Assembly (NCBI GenBank): GCA_903890485.1
Contig: CAITBM010000139.1
Span: 1 to 45,612 of the forward strand
Source: an uncultured Opitutaceae bacterium
Lineage (GTDB): Bacteria > Verrucomicrobiota > Verrucomicrobiia > Opitutales > Opitutaceae
Length of the DNA stretch: 45,612 nt
Direction: 5' to 3'
Shown here: piece by piece, positions 36,272 to 42,196 of the stretch
Numbering within the stretch: position 1 is the stretch's first letter
Layout of the letters: every line of letters begins with the position of its first letter
Notes under the pieces: generated by a model
What the model saw: only the letters and a program-made list of their open reading frames with translations
Databases searched by the model: none
What the model was told of the DNA's origin: nothing
Program-made: the position numbers and the translations under genes

Positions 36272-38815
36272 CTAGCGCCATTCGTGCCGCGGGTAGCGCC
36301 GGGAAAGCTCAGGCTTGATCTTGGGATAGATCTCCCGCCAGAAACTTGAAAGGTCATCGGTCACCTGCAGCGGGCGCTGGTTGGGCGCCAGGACCTCTAT
36401 CTTCACCGGCACCCTCCCCTGCCCAAGCGTGAACCGTCCCTCGATCCCGTAGAGCTCCTGGATGCGGGCGCTGAGGACCGGGGGGCCCTCCTTGCTGTAG
36501 GTGAGCCGGGACTTGCGGCCATTGCCCATGGTGAGGCGCTCAGGGACCACCTGGTCCATGGCTGCAAGCTGCTCGGCCGTGAGCCAATCGCGGAGGGTTG
36601 GCATGACGTCCCGGCCCTTCACCCCCCGGGCGGAGGTTTCGCCGTAGACCACCTGCTCGATCAGGGTCAGGCGGTCCGCCGGCGCAATCGGGTTCACCTC
36701 GTACTCCGGGAACCACTCGGCCATGCGGTTCACCCTAAGGATCCACTGCTCGACCGACTCGTCCCAGGCGTCGATCGAGAGCCGGCCGGCGACGACCTCC
36801 TTGGCGAGAAGCGCCGCGGCCTCCGTCGAGGGCACGTCGTCCGAGCCCGACTTGGACTCGAGGACCAGGTCCCGGAAGCGCTTGTCCCTTCGGGCGACGA
36901 CGCGCTTGGCCTCCGCATCGTAGGTCACCTCCCGGACGTCCTTTAATTCCCCGGGGAAAAGCTCCTTGAGCCACGGCTCCTCGATCGACGTGGCAATATT
37001 GAGGAGGACGTTCACCTCCCCGCCCCGGCCGCCCACCTCCGTGATCTCGGCCGCCACCAGGAGCGTCGCCTTCCCGACCGCGCTTTCCCGGGCGAGGAGC
37101 CCCCTTCGGCCGTGGACCAGGTCGCAGCGGAGGGTGCTCGACTCGAGCCGCTTCGCCAGGTGGTCCGGGAATCCCGCCAGGACGCATTTGCGGACCGCGA
37201 CCCCGTCTACCCGTTTCTCGGAGATGTCCAGGCCCTCGGCCTTCGCGACCTCGAGAAACTGCTCAAAGAGGGGGCCCACCTGGCGGGCCGCCTGGGCGTG
37301 GACTCCTATCCTGCGGCAGGCGTCGAGACTGTAGTTCGCGCGGTCGGCGTAGCGCCACGCCCGCATGAGGAGAAAGAAGTCGCTCTCGTGCTCCTCGCCC
37401 AGGAGCTCCTCGCGGGCCTCCTCGACCCCTCGCGGCACGCCGCGCAGGAGGAAGTTCCTTCCCTGGGTCAAGGCCGCCATCATCGCGACCGGGCGGACGG
37501 AGCCCCGCTCCTGGGCCTCGAGCAGCATGCGCGCGTAGCGCGGGTGCACGGGGAACCGCAGCATGCGGCGGCCGATCTCGGTGATGGAGCTGGTCGGCCC
37601 CGCCAGGGCCGCCAGGTCCCTTAAGAGCGCCTCGGCCCGGTCGAGACCCTTGGGGTCGGGCCGTTCAAACCAGGTGAACGCCCGCAGGTCCTCGATCCCC
37701 GAGGCCTTGAGCGTCAGGACGACCTCCGAGAGGTCGAGCCGCTTCACCTCGGGGAGCTCGTGGAGGGCACGTTGGCCATGCTCCCGCTCGCTCCAGAGGC
37801 GCACACAGATCCCGGGGGCCGTGCGGCCGGCCCGGCCCGCCCGCTGGTCGGCCGAGGCGGCCGCGATCTTCTCCACGAGGAGCGTGTTGATGCCCCGCTC
37901 CGGGTCGAAGCGCGCCATGCGCGCCAGACCGCTGTCCACGACCGCCGTCACGCCGTCGATCGTGAGCGAGGTCTCGGCCACGTTCGTGGACACGATGATT
38001 TTCCGCGTGTTCGTGCGCGTGACCGCAAGGTCCTGCGCCTCCGGGGGAAGCTCGCCGTGGAGCGGGAGGGCGGCAAAGCCGCGCAGCGCCCGGCTTCCCT
38101 GGATCCCCTGGATCGTGCGGCTGATCTCATAGGCCCCGGGCATGAAGACCAGCATGTCGCCCGCGCTCTGGTCGGCGATCCGCTCGCACTCGCGGACGGC
38201 CACCTCCCACACGGGCTCCGCCTCGAAGCTCACGGCCTTCGGCAGGTACTCAATCGTCACGGGGTGGGCCCTCCCCTTGGAGACCAGGGTCGCGCAGGGA
38301 GCGAGGTAGTCCTTGAGCGCCCCGGCGTCCAAGGTCGCCGACATGACGACGATCTTAAGGTCTGGCCTCGACTCCCTCTGGACCTTGAGCGCCTTCGCGA
38401 GCGAGATGTCCCCGTAGAGGTGCCTCTCGTGGAATTCGTCGAAGACGAGCACGTTCACGCCGCGGAGCCCCGGATCAAACGTCATCTGCCGGAGTAGGAT
38501 TCCCTCGGTCACGAAGCGAATCCGGGTCGCCCGGCTGACGCGGGACTCGAGCCGGATCTGGTAGCCCACGATGTCGCCAAGCTGCGTGCCCACTTCCTCG
38601 GCGACGCGCTTCGCCAGCATGCGGGCGGCGAGCCGCCTCGGCTGGAGCACCACGACCTCGCCCCCGTCGAGAAACCCGTGGCGGAGCAAGATCTGCGGGA
38701 TCTGCGTCGACTTGCCCGAGCCGGTCGGCGCCTGGACGACGACGCGGCCCTCGCCCCTAAGGGAGGCGAGGAATTCGGTCTCCAGCTCGTAGATCGGAAG
38801 GTCCTTGGGCGACAT
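36272..38815 (-). CDS. hrpB: ATP-dependent RNA helicase HrpB
   Basis: DEAH-type helicase, 847 residues, family HrpB; it probably acts on RNA, and its cellular role is poorly known. Motif I is GSGKSTQIPQ near the N-terminus, motif II DEFH (DEFHERHLYGD), motif III SATLD, motif VI region DQRAGRAGR. The HA2 helical bundle and the HrpB-specific C-terminal domain follow, ending RRYPRHEWR. It is of full family length. The gene starts 8 bp below the DnaA-box inverted repeat at 38824-38865, so its promoter overlaps those sites. It separates two clusters of toxin-antitoxin-like genes. Confidence 0.95.
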   Translation of the reverse strand: MSPKDLPIYELETEFLASLRGEGRVVVQAPTGSGKSTQIPQILLRHGFLDGGEVVVLQPRRLAARMLAKRVAEEVGTQLGDIVGYQIRLESRVSRATRIRFVTEGILLRQMTFDPGLRGVNVLVFDEFHERHLYGDISLAKALKVQRESRPDLKIVVMSATLDAGALKDYLAPCATLVSKGRAHPVTIEYLPKAVSFEAEPVWEVAVRECERIADQSAGDMLVFMPGAYEISRTIQGIQGSRALRGFAALPLHGELPPEAQDLAVTRTNTRKIIVSTNVAETSLTIDGVTAVVDSGLARMARFDPERGINTLLVEKIAAASADQRAGRAGRTAPGICVRLWSEREHGQRALHELPEVKRLDLSEVVLTLKASGIEDLRAFTWFERPDPKGLDRAEALLRDLAALAGPTSSITEIGRRMLRFPVHPRYARMLLEAQERGSVRPVAMMAALTQGRNFLLRGVPRGVEEAREELLGEEHESDFFLLMRAWRYADRANYSLDACRRIGVHAQAARQVGPLFEQFLEVAKAEGLDISEKRVDGVAVRKCVLAGFPDHLAKRLESSTLRCDLVHGRRGLLARESAVGKATLLVAAEITEVGGRGGEVNVLLNIATSIEEPWLKELFPGELKDVREVTYDAEAKRVVARRDKRFRDLVLESKSGSDDVPSTEAAALLAKEVVAGRLSIDAWDESVEQWILRVNRMAEWFPEYEVNPIAPADRLTLIEQVVYGETSARGVKGRDVMPTLRDWLTAEQLAAMDQVVPERLTMGNGRKSRLTYSKEGPPVLSARIQELYGIEGRFTLGQGRVPVKIEVLAPNQRPLQVTDDLSSFWREIYPKIKPELSRRYPRHEWR

Positions 38816-38823
38816 GGGCGGGT

Positions 38824-38894
38824 TGTGAATAACCGGTGAGTTACTTTGCTCTCAGGTTATTCACAGCATCTTTTTGTGAGGGAATTGTGGATAA
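38824..38894. promoter_or_regulatory. Cluster of three DnaA-box-like 9-mers, two within an 11-bp inverted repeat
   Basis: Minus-strand TTATTCACA lies at 38824-38832 and plus-strand TTATTCACA at 38857-38865. Together they form a perfect 11-bp inverted repeat (TGTGAATAACC ... GGTTATTCACA) around a 20-base centre. A consensus DnaA box TTATCCACA is on the minus strand at 38886-38894. The first two differ from the consensus at one position. The sites lie in the hrpB promoter region and just before the large RNA region. Alternative readings are a plain stem-loop or an operator for another factor. Confidence 0.5.
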
Positions 38895-38993
38895 GAAAAG
38901 CTTCACCCTTTCGTAACCCTGCCGCAACGTCTGCTCGTTCCTTGATAGAACAGTCGCAGCGCGAAGGCCTGAAAAACCCTTCGAAAGCACGAC

Positions 38994-39002
38994 TGAGATA
39001 AT
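38994..39002 (+). promoter_or_regulatory. Candidate extended -10 promoter for the structured RNA
   Basis: TG-A-GATAAT is an extended -10 element (TGn plus five of six consensus bases) with no clear -35 box. Transcription would begin near 39009, just before the first large helix of the RNA region. This is a sequence match only. Confidence 0.35.
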
Positions 39003-39008
39003 CCCGGG

Positions 39009-39800
39009 CGACCGGGGAAAGGACGGTGGCAGCTGGTGCCGCCATCCCCTCACCGCAGCAATGTGGAGCGAGGCAATATCACCAGTTCCTCTGGTCGGTG
39101 TCATGACCGATCAGTAACATGAACACAGGAGCTGAGCGGCAAGGCGTGATTAGAAACCGCGTCCGAGCCGAGTCAGGGATCCGGGAGGTTTCGAACCGGG
39201 TTCCGACGCAGTTACCCAGAGGGTATGGTTGCTACTGCGCAGACCAGAACGCAGTCGCGTTTCCCGGCGGGACGACCCCGCCAAAAGGCCTGGACCGGTA
39301 AAAACGGACCAGACGCGCAAGGGAGACGGGACGGCGGGGAGCGAGCGGGCCAGGCAAATCCCGTGAAAACTCCTCAATTGGGCGGCGTGTAAATCCGCGT
39401 CACCCAACTGCAAAGCGAACGCAACCTGAGAGTTAAGAGGTCAGACCCGTAACGCGGGGCAAACGACCGGCCAAAAGCCGGTGCCGTCCCCGTGGCAACG
39501 GTGCCGACGCGAAAGATCCGCTACTTGTAGGCGTGTCTGCACCACGTCCGGCGTGCCGTCCCTGGCAGGGGGTGGCCGAACTGGGCGAAGAGGCCTCACT
39601 CGATAGACTCCAACCGGCAACGGTAGGAGCGATCCCGCCATGAGATCGAAATCTTCGCATGCCGCGGAGAGTGGCGTCGGGGAGCATACGGCCCGCGAAA
39701 GCGAGTGCGCCCAACGTATGTGATGGGAAAGAGCGCGTGGCGAGCGCCCACCCCCAAATTTGGCCCCGGAACCGAAAGGTTCCGGGGCCTTATTTTTTTA
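39009..39800 (+). ncRNA. Large, highly structured non-coding RNA of unrecognised class
   Basis: About 790 nt without a credible protein, but with stable helices throughout: 39025-39031/39037-39043 inside GGGG/CCCC (39014-39017/39046-39049); 39081-39085/39091-39095; 39235-39239/39250-39254; GGCGGG/CCCGCC 39266-39282; 39290-39297/39305-39312 (one A-A mismatch); 39378-39382/39403-39407; ACCGGC/GCCGGT 39466-39482 inside CGGGG/CCCCG (39455-39459/39488-39492); 39494-39505; 39506-39511/39532-39537; 39608-39629 with a GCAA loop; GCATACG/CGTATGT 39684-39721 enclosing a GAAA-capped stem. It ends in a perfect intrinsic terminator, so it is probably an independent transcript. Conserved cores of RNase P RNA, tmRNA, SRP RNA, cobalamin riboswitch and group II domain V were sought and not found. 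The 5' end is uncertain. Confidence 0.7.
39762..39800 (+). terminator. Strong intrinsic terminator of the structured RNA
   Basis: GGCCCCGGAACC (39762-39773) and GGTTCCGGGGCC (39778-39789) form a perfect 12-bp stem capped by GAAA, followed by TTATTTTTTTA (39790-39800). This is the strongest terminator in the window. No plus-strand protein gene precedes it for more than 3 kb, so it must serve the RNA. Confidence 0.92.
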
Positions 39801-39884
39801 CGGATTTGGAGCTAATTGGCCGGTCCGTGTCCCTTGGGAGATATGCCTGACGCGAGCGTCCGTTCCAACGACCGGTGAGAGGTA

Positions 39885-40121
39885 TTACGGTTCATCTCCC
39901 AGTTCCGGGGGTACCGCGGGTACTTTTGAAAGGACGCGCCGGAACTTCGAACCGCTTGCACGAGAGCTGCGCTCAGAAAGGTAGCGCTCGGTATCGATCG
40001 CCGAAAGTTTTTCCGCCACCGCGGTGCTAATGAGTTGATTGATCGAAATGCCTTCCGTTTCGGCAAGGCGTTTCGCGTGCCGATGTATAGAGTTCGGAAG
40101 TCTGAGGCTTAGGGTGCTCAT
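39885..40121 (-). CDS. Ribbon-helix-helix antitoxin (HicB-like, PF05534 type)
   Basis: A 78-residue protein: MSTLSLRLPNSIHRHAKRLAE, then GISINQLISTAVAEKLSAI. This is the classic ribbon-helix-helix layout (a beta strand with alternating residues, then two helices) of short HicB-family antitoxins. The tail (YLSERSSRASGSKFRRVLSKVPAVPPE) is basic and proline-rich. It is second in its operon, after the PIN toxin, and overlaps it by four bases. It is the likely ligand of the palindrome at 40534-40553. Confidence 0.82.
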   Translation of the reverse strand: MSTLSLRLPNSIHRHAKRLAETEGISINQLISTAVAEKLSAIDTERYLSERSSRASGSKFRRVLSKVPAVPPELGDEP

Positions 40122-40531
40122 AGTTTAATTTCCTCTATCAATTCTCGTGGGCTGATCACTCGGATGCCAAATTTGTCACAGCCAATGAAGTCTCGTTGGT
40201 TGAAGGTCACTATTGCATCGGCGTTCCCTGAAACGGCTAATTCCAGGATTAGGTCGCCATCTGGATCAGGAAGCTGTGGGCGCCACAGGAAATTTATCCG
40301 TACATGATCACACTCCGATGCGATGAAATCGAGAAAGTCCTCGATGTCCTGGGATGTGAGATGAGGAAACTGCTTTGGACGACGTAATACCTCTTCATAT
40401 TCGAAAAAAACAGGGGTTGAGACCATTGGGCGAAATCTTGAATTTGGCAGCGAACCTATGACTCTGTGGGATGCGCCAATCGAGGAGCGCAACGCGGAGT
40501 AGAGTATGCAGGTGTCGAGAACGACGCGCAT
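40118..40531 (-). CDS. PIN-domain toxin, COG1569 type
   Basis: A 137-residue PIN-fold ribonuclease: VVLDTCILYSALRSS (first Asp), FFEYEEVLRRP (Glu), LPDPDGDLILELAVSGNADAIVTFNQRDF (the remaining acids). The LPDPDGDLILELAV...A-IVTFN signature belongs to COG1569 putative toxins, distinct from the VapC-like protein at 34335-34733. The toxin precedes its antitoxin, a reversed order seen also in HigBA and HicAB systems. The start codon is three bases from the operator palindrome. Confidence 0.85.
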   Translation of the reverse strand: MRVVLDTCILYSALRSSIGASHRVIGSLPNSRFRPMVSTPVFFEYEEVLRRPKQFPHLTSQDIEDFLDFIASECDHVRINFLWRPQLPDPDGDLILELAVSGNADAIVTFNQRDFIGCDKFGIRVISPRELIEEIKL

Positions 40532-40640: not shown

Positions 40641-40964
40641 ATGAGTCTTACTCCATTTGGAGACCGTGAAGCGATGGAACACTTGGGAGAACGCCTGAGG
40701 CGCGAACGGCTGCGCCGCAATCAGACGCAAGGTCAGGCGGCGGCATGGGCTGGGGTCTCGAGGAATACCTATGCCAAACTGGAGACGGGCGATGGGTCGG
40801 TACAGCTTCGCGTACTCGCGCGGGTTCTTGGGCAATTCGGATTTGTAAACCGCTTGGTAGATTGTGTGCCCGAGGCGCCAGCCGTGATCGACTTCGACGC
40901 GGAGGCTCGGATTGCCGATCGCCAGCGGGCTCGCCCAAGCAAACCCAATACCCCACCCCGATGA
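40641..40964 (+). CDS. HipB-like helix-turn-helix antitoxin/regulator
   Basis: An XRE-family DNA-binding protein, 107 residues from ATG 40641; a second in-frame ATG at 40674 (MEHLGERL) would also serve. The helix-turn-helix reads RRNQTQGQAAAWAGVSRNTYAKLETGDGSVQLRVLARVLGQFG, typical of HipB-like partners. The C-terminal tail (ADRQRARPSKPNTPPR) is basic and flexible. The stop overlaps the hipA start (ATGA). It is expected to repress the operon and bind HipA. Confidence 0.82.
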   Translation: MSLTPFGDREAMEHLGERLRRERLRRNQTQGQAAAWAGVSRNTYAKLETGDGSVQLRVLARVLGQFGFVNRLVDCVPEAPAVIDFDAEARIADRQRARPSKPNTPPR

Positions 40965-42196
40965 ATGCGCTTCGAGCACCCAAGCGCCTCGATGTCGTGT
41001 GGCACGACGGCCGCTTGATCGGAGAACTCCTTCACAGCGGCCCCATTTACTTCCGCTATGCGCCGGCGTGGCTTGAAACCGCGCACAATCTTTCCCCGCT
41101 CAATCTGCCTTTTGATGCACGGCCGATCAATTGCTCCGCGGCCGACGACGGGGTCCCTGGCATCATTTCCGATGCGTTGCCGGACGCGTGGGGCCGCCGC
41201 GTCGCCGAGTCGGTATTCGCCCAAAAACAACTGGGGAAACCAACGCCCTTGAAGCTCATGGCCTGGGTCGGCGCCCGAGGACTGGGGGCCATCGGCTTTC
41301 AGCCCAGCCTATTTGTCGAGGAACGATCACACGACTTGGGCCACGAAATCCACGCTTCCGCGCTGGAGCGGGAAGCGCGCGCCGTCATCGAAGGCGACAT
41401 CTCCTTCGTGCTGGAAAACCTGACGGGTGGCCTCACGGGCGGGGGAGCCCATCCCAAGGTTCTGGCGGTGGCAAAGCCCGACAACACGCTTCGCCTAAGA
41501 GGCGGGATAAGGTCCCTCGCCCCAAGGGAAGTTCCTTCAATCCTAAAGCTCAACGTGGGCGGGAGCTATCGGCACAGGGCCGAGCTCGCCTACCTTCAGA
41601 TGGCCGCTTGCGCGGGCATCGCGACTCCCCGTGCCCGAATCCTCACGGACGAGAGCGGGCACGACCACCTCCTCATCGGGCGATTCGACGCGGATGCCAA
41701 GGGCCGGAAAAGCCATGTTCACAGCCTCTCAGGACTCCTCCATAGGCCCAAGGGCGATCTCGACTACGCGGACCTGATCCAGGCGTGTGCCCGACTCAGA
41801 TGCCCCCGTTCGGATCTTCTCGCCGTCGCTCGCCGGCTGATCTTCAACCTGCGAGCCGGAAATCAGGACGACCATGGGAAGAACCATGCATTCCTCTACG
41901 ACGAGGACGCCCGGACGTGGAGTTTGGCCCCTGCCTTCGACCTCACCCATAGTCCCGGATTGGACAGGGGCATGAAGATCGCCGGCGAGGTGATTCCCGA
42001 GTGGCGGCGGCTGAAGCCGTGGTTGTTGGGTGCCGGTATTGCCCCAGATGAAATCCAAGCGGCTGCAGTGGCGGTAGATGACGCCCTGGCGGCCTGGCCA
42101 AAAATCGCCGCAGAGGCCGCGGTGCCCGTAGGCCAGATTTCCGAGATCGCGGCGACCCATACCCGTATCTCAAGCCAGATGGGTCCGCTCTGTTAG
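40961..42196 (+). CDS. HipA-family Ser/Thr kinase toxin
   Basis: HipA-type protein kinase, 411 residues from ATG 40961, close to the full length of E. coli HipA (about 440). The N-terminal subdomain has DGRLIGELLHSGPIYFRYAPAWL. LPDAWGRRVAE and ARGLGAIGFQP are family blocks. The nucleotide-binding strand is SILKLNV, the catalytic loop is NQDDHGKNHAF (residues 301-311) and the metal-binding Asp327 is in APAFDLTHS. All catalytic residues appear intact. In E. coli the target is glutamyl-tRNA synthetase; gltX is in this window, but that does not show the same target here. Confidence 0.88.
   Translation: MNALRAPKRLDVVWHDGRLIGELLHSGPIYFRYAPAWLETAHNLSPLNLPFDARPINCSAADDGVPGIISDALPDAWGRRVAESVFAQKQLGKPTPLKLMAWVGARGLGAIGFQPSLFVEERSHDLGHEIHASALEREARAVIEGDISFVLENLTGGLTGGGAHPKVLAVAKPDNTLRLRGGIRSLAPREVPSILKLNVGGSYRHRAELAYLQMAACAGIATPRARILTDESGHDHLLIGRFDADAKGRKSHVHSLSGLLHRPKGDLDYADLIQACARLRCPRSDLLAVARRLIFNLRAGNQDDHGKNHAFLYDEDARTWSLAPAFDLTHSPGLDRGMKIAGEVIPEWRRLKPWLLGAGIAPDEIQAAAVAVDDALAAWPKIAAEAAVPVGQISEIAATHTRISSQMGPLC

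Follow-up and report, generated by a model that had tools for sequence, protein, structure and literature searches.

Features of the locus

The window, by which we mean the whole 45,612-nucleotide stretch of DNA that was analysed, carries hrpB on the minus strand (36272–38815), a structured RNA on the plus strand, and a PIN/RHH pair on the minus strand (39885–40531), with the start of typA approximately 2.6 kb away from the RNA. The interval between hrpB and the PIN/RHH pair is gene-free, as the original prediction had it: only short ORFs are present and none of these is convincing. In a cmscan search of the whole window against all Rfam models, MISL RNA (RF03079) was found at 38996–39748 of the plus strand with a score of 528.1 bits (E value 1.5e-159; gathering score 274.6 bits). 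The match spans the entire model (positions 1–751 of 751), and the only other window matches at the gathering threshold are two tRNAs. A permissive scan of 38700–40100, to an E value of 10, returned nine matches, and none of the eight besides MISL approached its own cut-off. The original prediction, that the RNA was of an unrecognised class so long as it did not confidently match a known family, does not stand: the full-length, above-cut-off match to RF03079 rules out a novel RNA class and, judged by this match, the RNA is a full-length copy of the already catalogued MISL RNA. This class was reportedly first described by Weinberg and colleagues in 2017. The genome to which the window belongs (144 contigs, 97% complete) has a single MISL copy.

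OLE, GOLLD and ROOL are large ornate RNAs with complex architecture, and MISL is similar to them in size and in this complexity, as far as their descriptions go; unlike them, it is chromosomal in Verrucomicrobiota and has no Rfam match to their models. Neither these three RNAs nor RNase P, tmRNA and SRP RNA were matched at the gathering threshold in the window or at an E value of 10 or less in 38700–40100, in agreement with the earlier failure to identify any of them here. No biochemical function of MISL RNA was found in the literature searched. MISL RNA does appear among the probed sequences of the Ribonanza study, as that study is described in PMC10925082.

The limits of the RNA had been placed at 39009–39800. 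This stretch is real, but it begins too late: the Rfam core starts at 38996, conservation reaches back to approximately 38937 (a boxA-like element), and DnaA-box-like sites are present from 38824 onwards. The window gene resembles the RF03079 model in its nested helices, in being a stand-alone gene and in its verrucomicrobial host, whereas its boxA-like element, 5' helix (P0), DnaA-box-like sites and terminator all lie outside the 751 positions of the model.

Core fold, covariation and pseudoknots

The stretch 38937–39800 has a minimum free energy of −392.8 kcal/mol, which corresponds to z = −8.1 relative to 20 dinucleotide-shuffled sequences. The window accommodates 172 of the 177 Rfam consensus pairs; they are arranged in 27 helices, and 164 of them are canonical. 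The many stems first noted in this stretch are thus borne out, with a fold far better than that of the shuffled sequences. A helix had been placed at 39455–39459/39488–39492 around an ACCGGC hairpin; it is indeed found around that hairpin (39466–39471/39477–39482), but its true extent is 39453–39459/39488–39494. In the Rfam consensus structure a long-range closing helix is formed by the strands at 39430–39440 (GAG....GAGG) and 39594–39601 (CCUC.CUC) of the plus strand.

For covariation analysis, the 153 MISL loci collected were reduced to 123 distinct sequences by leaving out 23 that are not full length and seven that are identical to others. The sequences (effective number 82) were aligned with MAFFT, and 20 null alignments were simulated on a FastTree tree. 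Many non-canonical pairs score highly in a pair scan without such a null, and only pairs above the null maximum were used. The homologues do covary, a point on which the original prediction had proposed that they be examined: 27 column pairs exceed all null scores, comprising 24 of the 172 Rfam pairs and three further pairs (39229–39424, 39636–39671 and 39104–39119).

Two pseudoknots, PK1 and PK2, lie outside the nested structure line of the cmscan output. PK1 pairs GGUUGC (39227–39232) with GCAACC (39421–39426), and its pair 39229–39424 is one of those above the null maximum: TA in 89 sequences, CG in 25, AT in five and non-canonical in four, so that it is canonical in 119 of 123. The two strands change together from GGUUGC/GCAACC to GGCUGC/GCAGCC, GAAUGC/GCAUUC and GAAGAC/GUCUUC. 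PK2 pairs GCCAU in a hairpin loop (39637–39641) with GUGGC (39671–39675), all strands being on the plus strand, and is seen in the pair counts of the 123 sequences. Both 39639–39673 (TA 55, CG 50, TG 18) and 39640–39672 (AT 107, GC 16) are canonical in 123 of 123 with two-sided changes; 39641–39671 is canonical in 100 of 123. The statistically strongest pair of PK2, 39636–39671, exceeds the null yet is off the PK2 register, and could reflect either tertiary contact or an effect of clade.

Distribution

MISL matches were found in 31 of 387 sampled Verrucomicrobiota genomes (E value 0.001), in 28 cases exceeding the cut-off, and in none of 14 control genomes. In the window's own family, 130 of 252 genomes have a match under strict filters (94 of 165 among good-quality genomes). 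Presence is patchy, with about half of the family lacking a match. A single match is found in 119 of the 130 positive genomes and two matches in the other 11, some of which are pieces of one copy. When 16 family genomes without a match were searched again more sensitively, nothing exceeded the cut-off; one 43-nt match had an E value of 0.17. G422 and G457 have strongly diverged or shortened MISL sequences (103 and 40 bits in G422; 610 nt in G457), which are perhaps decaying genes. By eye, a number of MISL copies sit no more than a few hundred bases from the start of a contig or are cut by its end, positions that would be expected if the conservation of the stretch interrupts metagenome assembly.

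A highly conserved core segment of approximately 31 nt (39435–39465, plus strand), written as the pattern AAGAGRNNAGRCCCGTN{5,8}GGCMAACG, was used as a probe against 84,980 species genomes. It matched at least 118 genomic stretches and, besides these, two viral contigs, and all 120 loci listed match a MISL profile. The titles of 117 of the 118 genomic stretches listed name lineages recognised as Verrucomicrobiota. The sole remaining genomic stretch among the matches listed, L074, branches beside a Limisphaerales copy. Among the matches listed MISL appears confined to Verrucomicrobiota, which falls short of proving its absence from other phyla.

The leader: boxA-like element, P0 helix and promoter region

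In an alignment of the regions upstream of 43 hrpB-linked copies, conservation extends well ahead of the Rfam start. The consensus sequences of boxA, the DnaA box and the −35 and −10 elements used here are those that we take to be standard, or were judged by likeness. At 38937–38951 of the plus strand lies a boxA-like antitermination element, GTTCCTTGATAGAAC, whose counterparts in other clades are GTTCATTGAAAGAAC, GCTCTTTGACAGAAC and GATCTTTGACAGAA. The motif GHTCHTTGANA is present within 130 nt upstream of MISL in 111 of 118 distinct loci (the 123 less five that have no upstream sequence), where the flanks predict 0.0009 per locus; in 86 of the 111 it lies 58–62 nt before the Rfam start. Six of the seven loci lacking the exact motif have near-matches by eye; the seventh, in G366, is without the element. 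In 19 genomes there are 12 occurrences of a stricter version, GTTCNTTGANAGAAC, all of them immediately ahead of a MISL copy; 12 of the 16 MISL-bearing genomes have it and none of the three MISL-less ones.

The same boxA core is found in 17 of 32 16S rRNA leaders, for example as GCTCTTTGAAAATTGA and GTTCCTTGAAAACTGA, where 0.05 would be expected in each from the rest of the loci; 15 of the 32 have no exact match. It is also present in L216, which by position is a probable 16S–23S spacer and was left out of the leader count. These leaders are mainly from other families of the class, since a 16S search of the 19 chosen genomes gave only three, none from the family of the window. MISL and rRNA operon leaders (boxB–boxA, NusB–S10) thus have the boxA core in common. 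In some MISL clades a hairpin such as ATTCCTTCGGGAAT precedes boxA and TTGAC promoters are present; this order of promoter, hairpin and boxA is also that of rRNA operon leaders, for which PMC10250234 describes the order boxB–boxA–boxC and the role of boxA. The boxA list in PMC5725501, by its own account, leaves noncoding RNAs out of consideration. Unlike an rRNA operon, MISL does not encode rRNA, no leader–trailer helix was noticed, and its exact DnaA-box-like sites are absent from 33 rRNA upstream regions.

Between boxA and the Rfam core, at 38951–38995 of the plus strand, a 5' helix designated P0 is predicted that is absent from the Rfam model (38951–38956/38990–38995, with an inner part at 38962–38967/38978–38983). 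Two-sided changes are found at seven of its 13 predicted pairs among 52 Opitutaceae-type leaders, in which 96.7% of pairs are canonical against a shuffle maximum of 92.7%. For the two other leader sets, RNAalifold returned no consensus P0. The three sets comprise 52 of 65, 25 of 32 and 18 of 26 leaders, these being the distinct ones with a boxA match.

The region at 38895–38936 of the plus strand is a probable promoter, a reading drawn from relatives: in other clades boxA is immediately preceded by −35/−10-like elements. In the window's own genome no plus-strand sigma-70 match was recognised upstream of MISL. The Pedosphaerales set has, by eye, a TGATAA-like −10 element just upstream of boxA, and the pattern TTGAC-N15-19-xAxxxT is found in none of 65 Opitutaceae-type loci, none of 28 Pedosphaerales-type loci and 13 of 25 other loci.

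The likeness to boxA is our own reading of the motif, and the GTTCNTTGANAGAAC module might instead be a promoter element or a small structural RNA hairpin (a GUUC/GAAC stem). The ends of the motif are palindromic in most Opitutaceae- and Pedosphaerales-type copies, the TTGACA within the GCTCTTTGACAGAAC version resembles a −35 box, and the rRNA boxA differs in that it mostly continues as AATTGA, AACTGA or AACTTT. We nevertheless regard such a role as unlikely. In the GATCTTTGACAG versions the GUUC/GAAC pairing is gone but the boxA core is kept, separate −35/−10-like elements lie upstream in two of the three sets, and the 16S leaders share not only the core but also the first-position variants GTTCC, GCTCA and GATCT. 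A boxA-like antitermination element remains our preferred reading, and it would probably lie inside the MISL transcript.

Terminator and genomic neighbourhood

The predicted intrinsic terminator, a 12-bp stem capped by a GAAA loop, was found at 39762–39789 and is followed by TTATTTTTTT, the whole site occupying 39762–39797 of the plus strand. Also as predicted, no protein-coding gene appears to use it, there being no convincing plus-strand gene that ends there. Of 123 relatives, 97 have a terminator-like site after the core, as against four of 123 shuffled sequences and two of 116 in a control region further downstream. The original view of this RNA as large, structured, free-standing and equipped with a terminator is supported by the RF03079 homology, by the tree-aware covariation, and by the presence of MISL in three RNA-phage contigs, the RNA origin of which we infer (see below).

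HrpB matches lie upstream in 52 of the 153 loci and TypA matches downstream in 51, with both in 39, counts that are limited by contig ends and by the 8-kb stretches used. Opitutaceae-type copies of MISL often lie between a divergent hrpB and a downstream typA. An M23 peptidase and cysK–rho are the chief neighbours in the Pedosphaerales/marine branch (16, 17 and 14 of 153). Neighbour contexts are clade-specific on the MISL tree; the neighbouring genes vary between clades and give no clue to function. In six of 16 MISL-less family genomes (G345, G207, G289, G223, G310 and G339) hrpB and typA are directly adjacent without MISL. From the clade-specific contexts and this adjacency, the MISL gene appears to be mostly inherited at stable places and to be missing, through loss or original absence, from many relatives. 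Two genomes, G330 and G155, have two MISL copies each (L031, L032, L047, L048), and one copy of each pair, without an HrpB match nearby, falls in a separate branch with L097, L128 and L135. Among the neighbours of these five loci there is one protein match (38% over 127 amino acids).

A role of MISL as a 5' leader that regulates a gene in cis, such as typA, is in our view very unlikely. Same-strand downstream matches are admittedly to TypA in those 51 loci and to CysK in 17, but a terminator-like site comes immediately after the core in most copies, the downstream genes vary by clade, and typA stays beside hrpB in the six MISL-less genomes. In the window itself the next genes (RHH and PIN) are antisense to MISL, with typA starting beyond them.

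Two other features were observed downstream. The RHH/PIN pair, which is toxin–antitoxin-like and lies between MISL and typA, has matches near MISL in one of 153 loci, namely its own. The translation of an ORF at 40745–42196 resembles, by eye, HipA-type kinases, and a short helix-turn-helix-like stretch lies upstream of it.

DnaA-box-like sites

Three exact DnaA-box-like sites lie within 71 bp between hrpB and MISL, and these are the only ones in the window: TTATNCACA, the outermost, at 38824–38832 (minus strand), TTATTCACA at 38857–38865 (plus strand) and TTATCCACA at 38886–38894 (minus strand). We take TTATNCACA to be the DnaA box consensus. The second and third sites form an inverted pair (38857–38894), the only such pair found in this genome.

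Sites of this kind are also found ahead of the MISL copies of other clades, whose loci are unrelated. There are 46 exact sites in 36 of the 118 loci, 190–60 nt before the Rfam start (approximately 0.6 in shuffles), and when one mismatch is allowed the sites are found in 100 of 118 loci (approximately 11 in shuffles). Exact sites are present in only 14 of the 65 Opitutaceae-type loci. The reversed motif occurs once upstream of MISL. No exact site was found in 33 rRNA upstream regions (one of them a spacer) or in 16 MISL-less hrpB upstream regions. The background is six exact sites in 1.16 Mb sampled from three genomes, a figure that excludes two stretches of G128 selected on account of their DnaA clusters (five boxes), and one in 47.7 kb of ORF-free DNA as defined by a crude ORF filter. 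Among these three genomes, the hrpB–MISL interval of G018 is without an exact site, and G319 and G128 have one each upstream.

These sites could serve replication rather than MISL if the gene sat at a replication origin, and an inverted pair that is the sole one found in the genome would suit such a place. This is hardly credible. In 27 of 29 loci the GC skew keeps its sign across MISL, and in the other two it switches from + to − rather than from − to +. In G018 the skew origin is near 0 Mb and MISL is at 2.45 of 4.32 Mb (two of 20 samples being out of line); the sampled skew origins of G319 and G128 are near 2.4 and 0.8 Mb, and MISL is at 4.09 and 1.44 Mb, respectively. In addition, MISL has such sites at loci that are unrelated to one another, and all 16 MISL-less hrpB upstream regions lack them. 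For DnaA-linked expression, CcnA, a noncoding RNA tied to cell-cycle control in Caulobacter, is a possible analogy and no more; it is likened to MISL here by its description in PMC8959179.

RNA-phage contigs and transcription

The two viral contigs found with the MISL pattern are IMG/VR sequences, L181 and L182, in which MISL adjoins ssRNA-phage genes; a third such contig, L407, was found through a phage protein. L181 encodes a replicase (PF03431, E value 3e-42) and a maturation protein (PF03863, E value 7.6e-5, below the Pfam cut-off), and L182 a maturation protein (PF03863, E value 7.1e-28). One sequence pattern looked for in L407 was not present there. The junctions are at MISL profile positions 737 (L181), 617 (L182) and 272 (L407), each upstream of the phage genes. 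Over 1854 nt of phage sequence another contig, L263, matches L182 at 99.4% identity, but upstream of the same point its sequence is unrelated. Given these junctions and the divergence of L263 from L182, the three fusions look like chimeras formed at the phage 5' end by template switching during reverse transcription; this can be seen for the L182 phage and is extended by analogy to L181 and L407. In 20 phage contigs with long leaders, no Rfam match was found at the gathering threshold. L181:1-5357, L182:1-2347 and L407:1-480 are probable chimeras that could mislead virus catalogues.

That MISL is a phage or mobile RNA, or part of RNA-phage genomes, is an idea to which the three contigs, the patchy presence and the double matches of 11 among the 130 positive genomes of the family (in part fragments of a single copy) might lend themselves, but we give it almost no credence: three different junction positions and the unrelated sequence in L263 are what template-switch chimeras would produce, and the chromosomal copies retain clade-specific neighbours. 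On the chimera reading, because RNA-phage genomes come only from sequenced RNA, the fusions indicate that MISL is transcribed and exists in the environment as RNA; that such fusions recur suggests a high abundance.

Proposed role of the MISL gene

Taking these features together, the MISL gene is, on balance, probably a stand-alone unit of rRNA style, linked to growth or replication, that makes a trans-acting structured RNA of approximately 800 nt. Transcription would begin immediately ahead of boxA and would be tied to replication or growth by DnaA or by another factor that shares the DnaA motif. NusB–S10 would load on boxA and make RNA polymerase resistant to Rho, and this resistance would allow the untranslated RNA to be completed and to fold co-transcriptionally, as rRNA does. 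The RNA may then act in trans as a ribonucleoprotein scaffold or a ribozyme. Its absence from many close relatives suggests that it would be useful but dispensable.

The control region and the extra pairings appear to be undescribed as far as the literature searched goes; among the matches listed there, no title or abstract opening reports boxA or a DnaA box in combination with MISL. Constructs trimmed to the Rfam limits would lack both the leader and helix P0. The leader offers several handles on this RNA, namely possible NusB–S10 antitermination, possible DnaA control, a longer 5' end and, with the core, two pseudoknots; its natural presence and absence in relatives and the indirect evidence of transcription offer others. 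More tentatively, and with somewhat more doubt than confidence on our part, the gene may be built like an rRNA operon (promoter, boxB/boxA leader and terminator) and placed under DnaA control, in which case it would couple the output of a ribonucleoprotein or ribozyme on the scale of rRNA to chromosome replication in Verrucomicrobiota.
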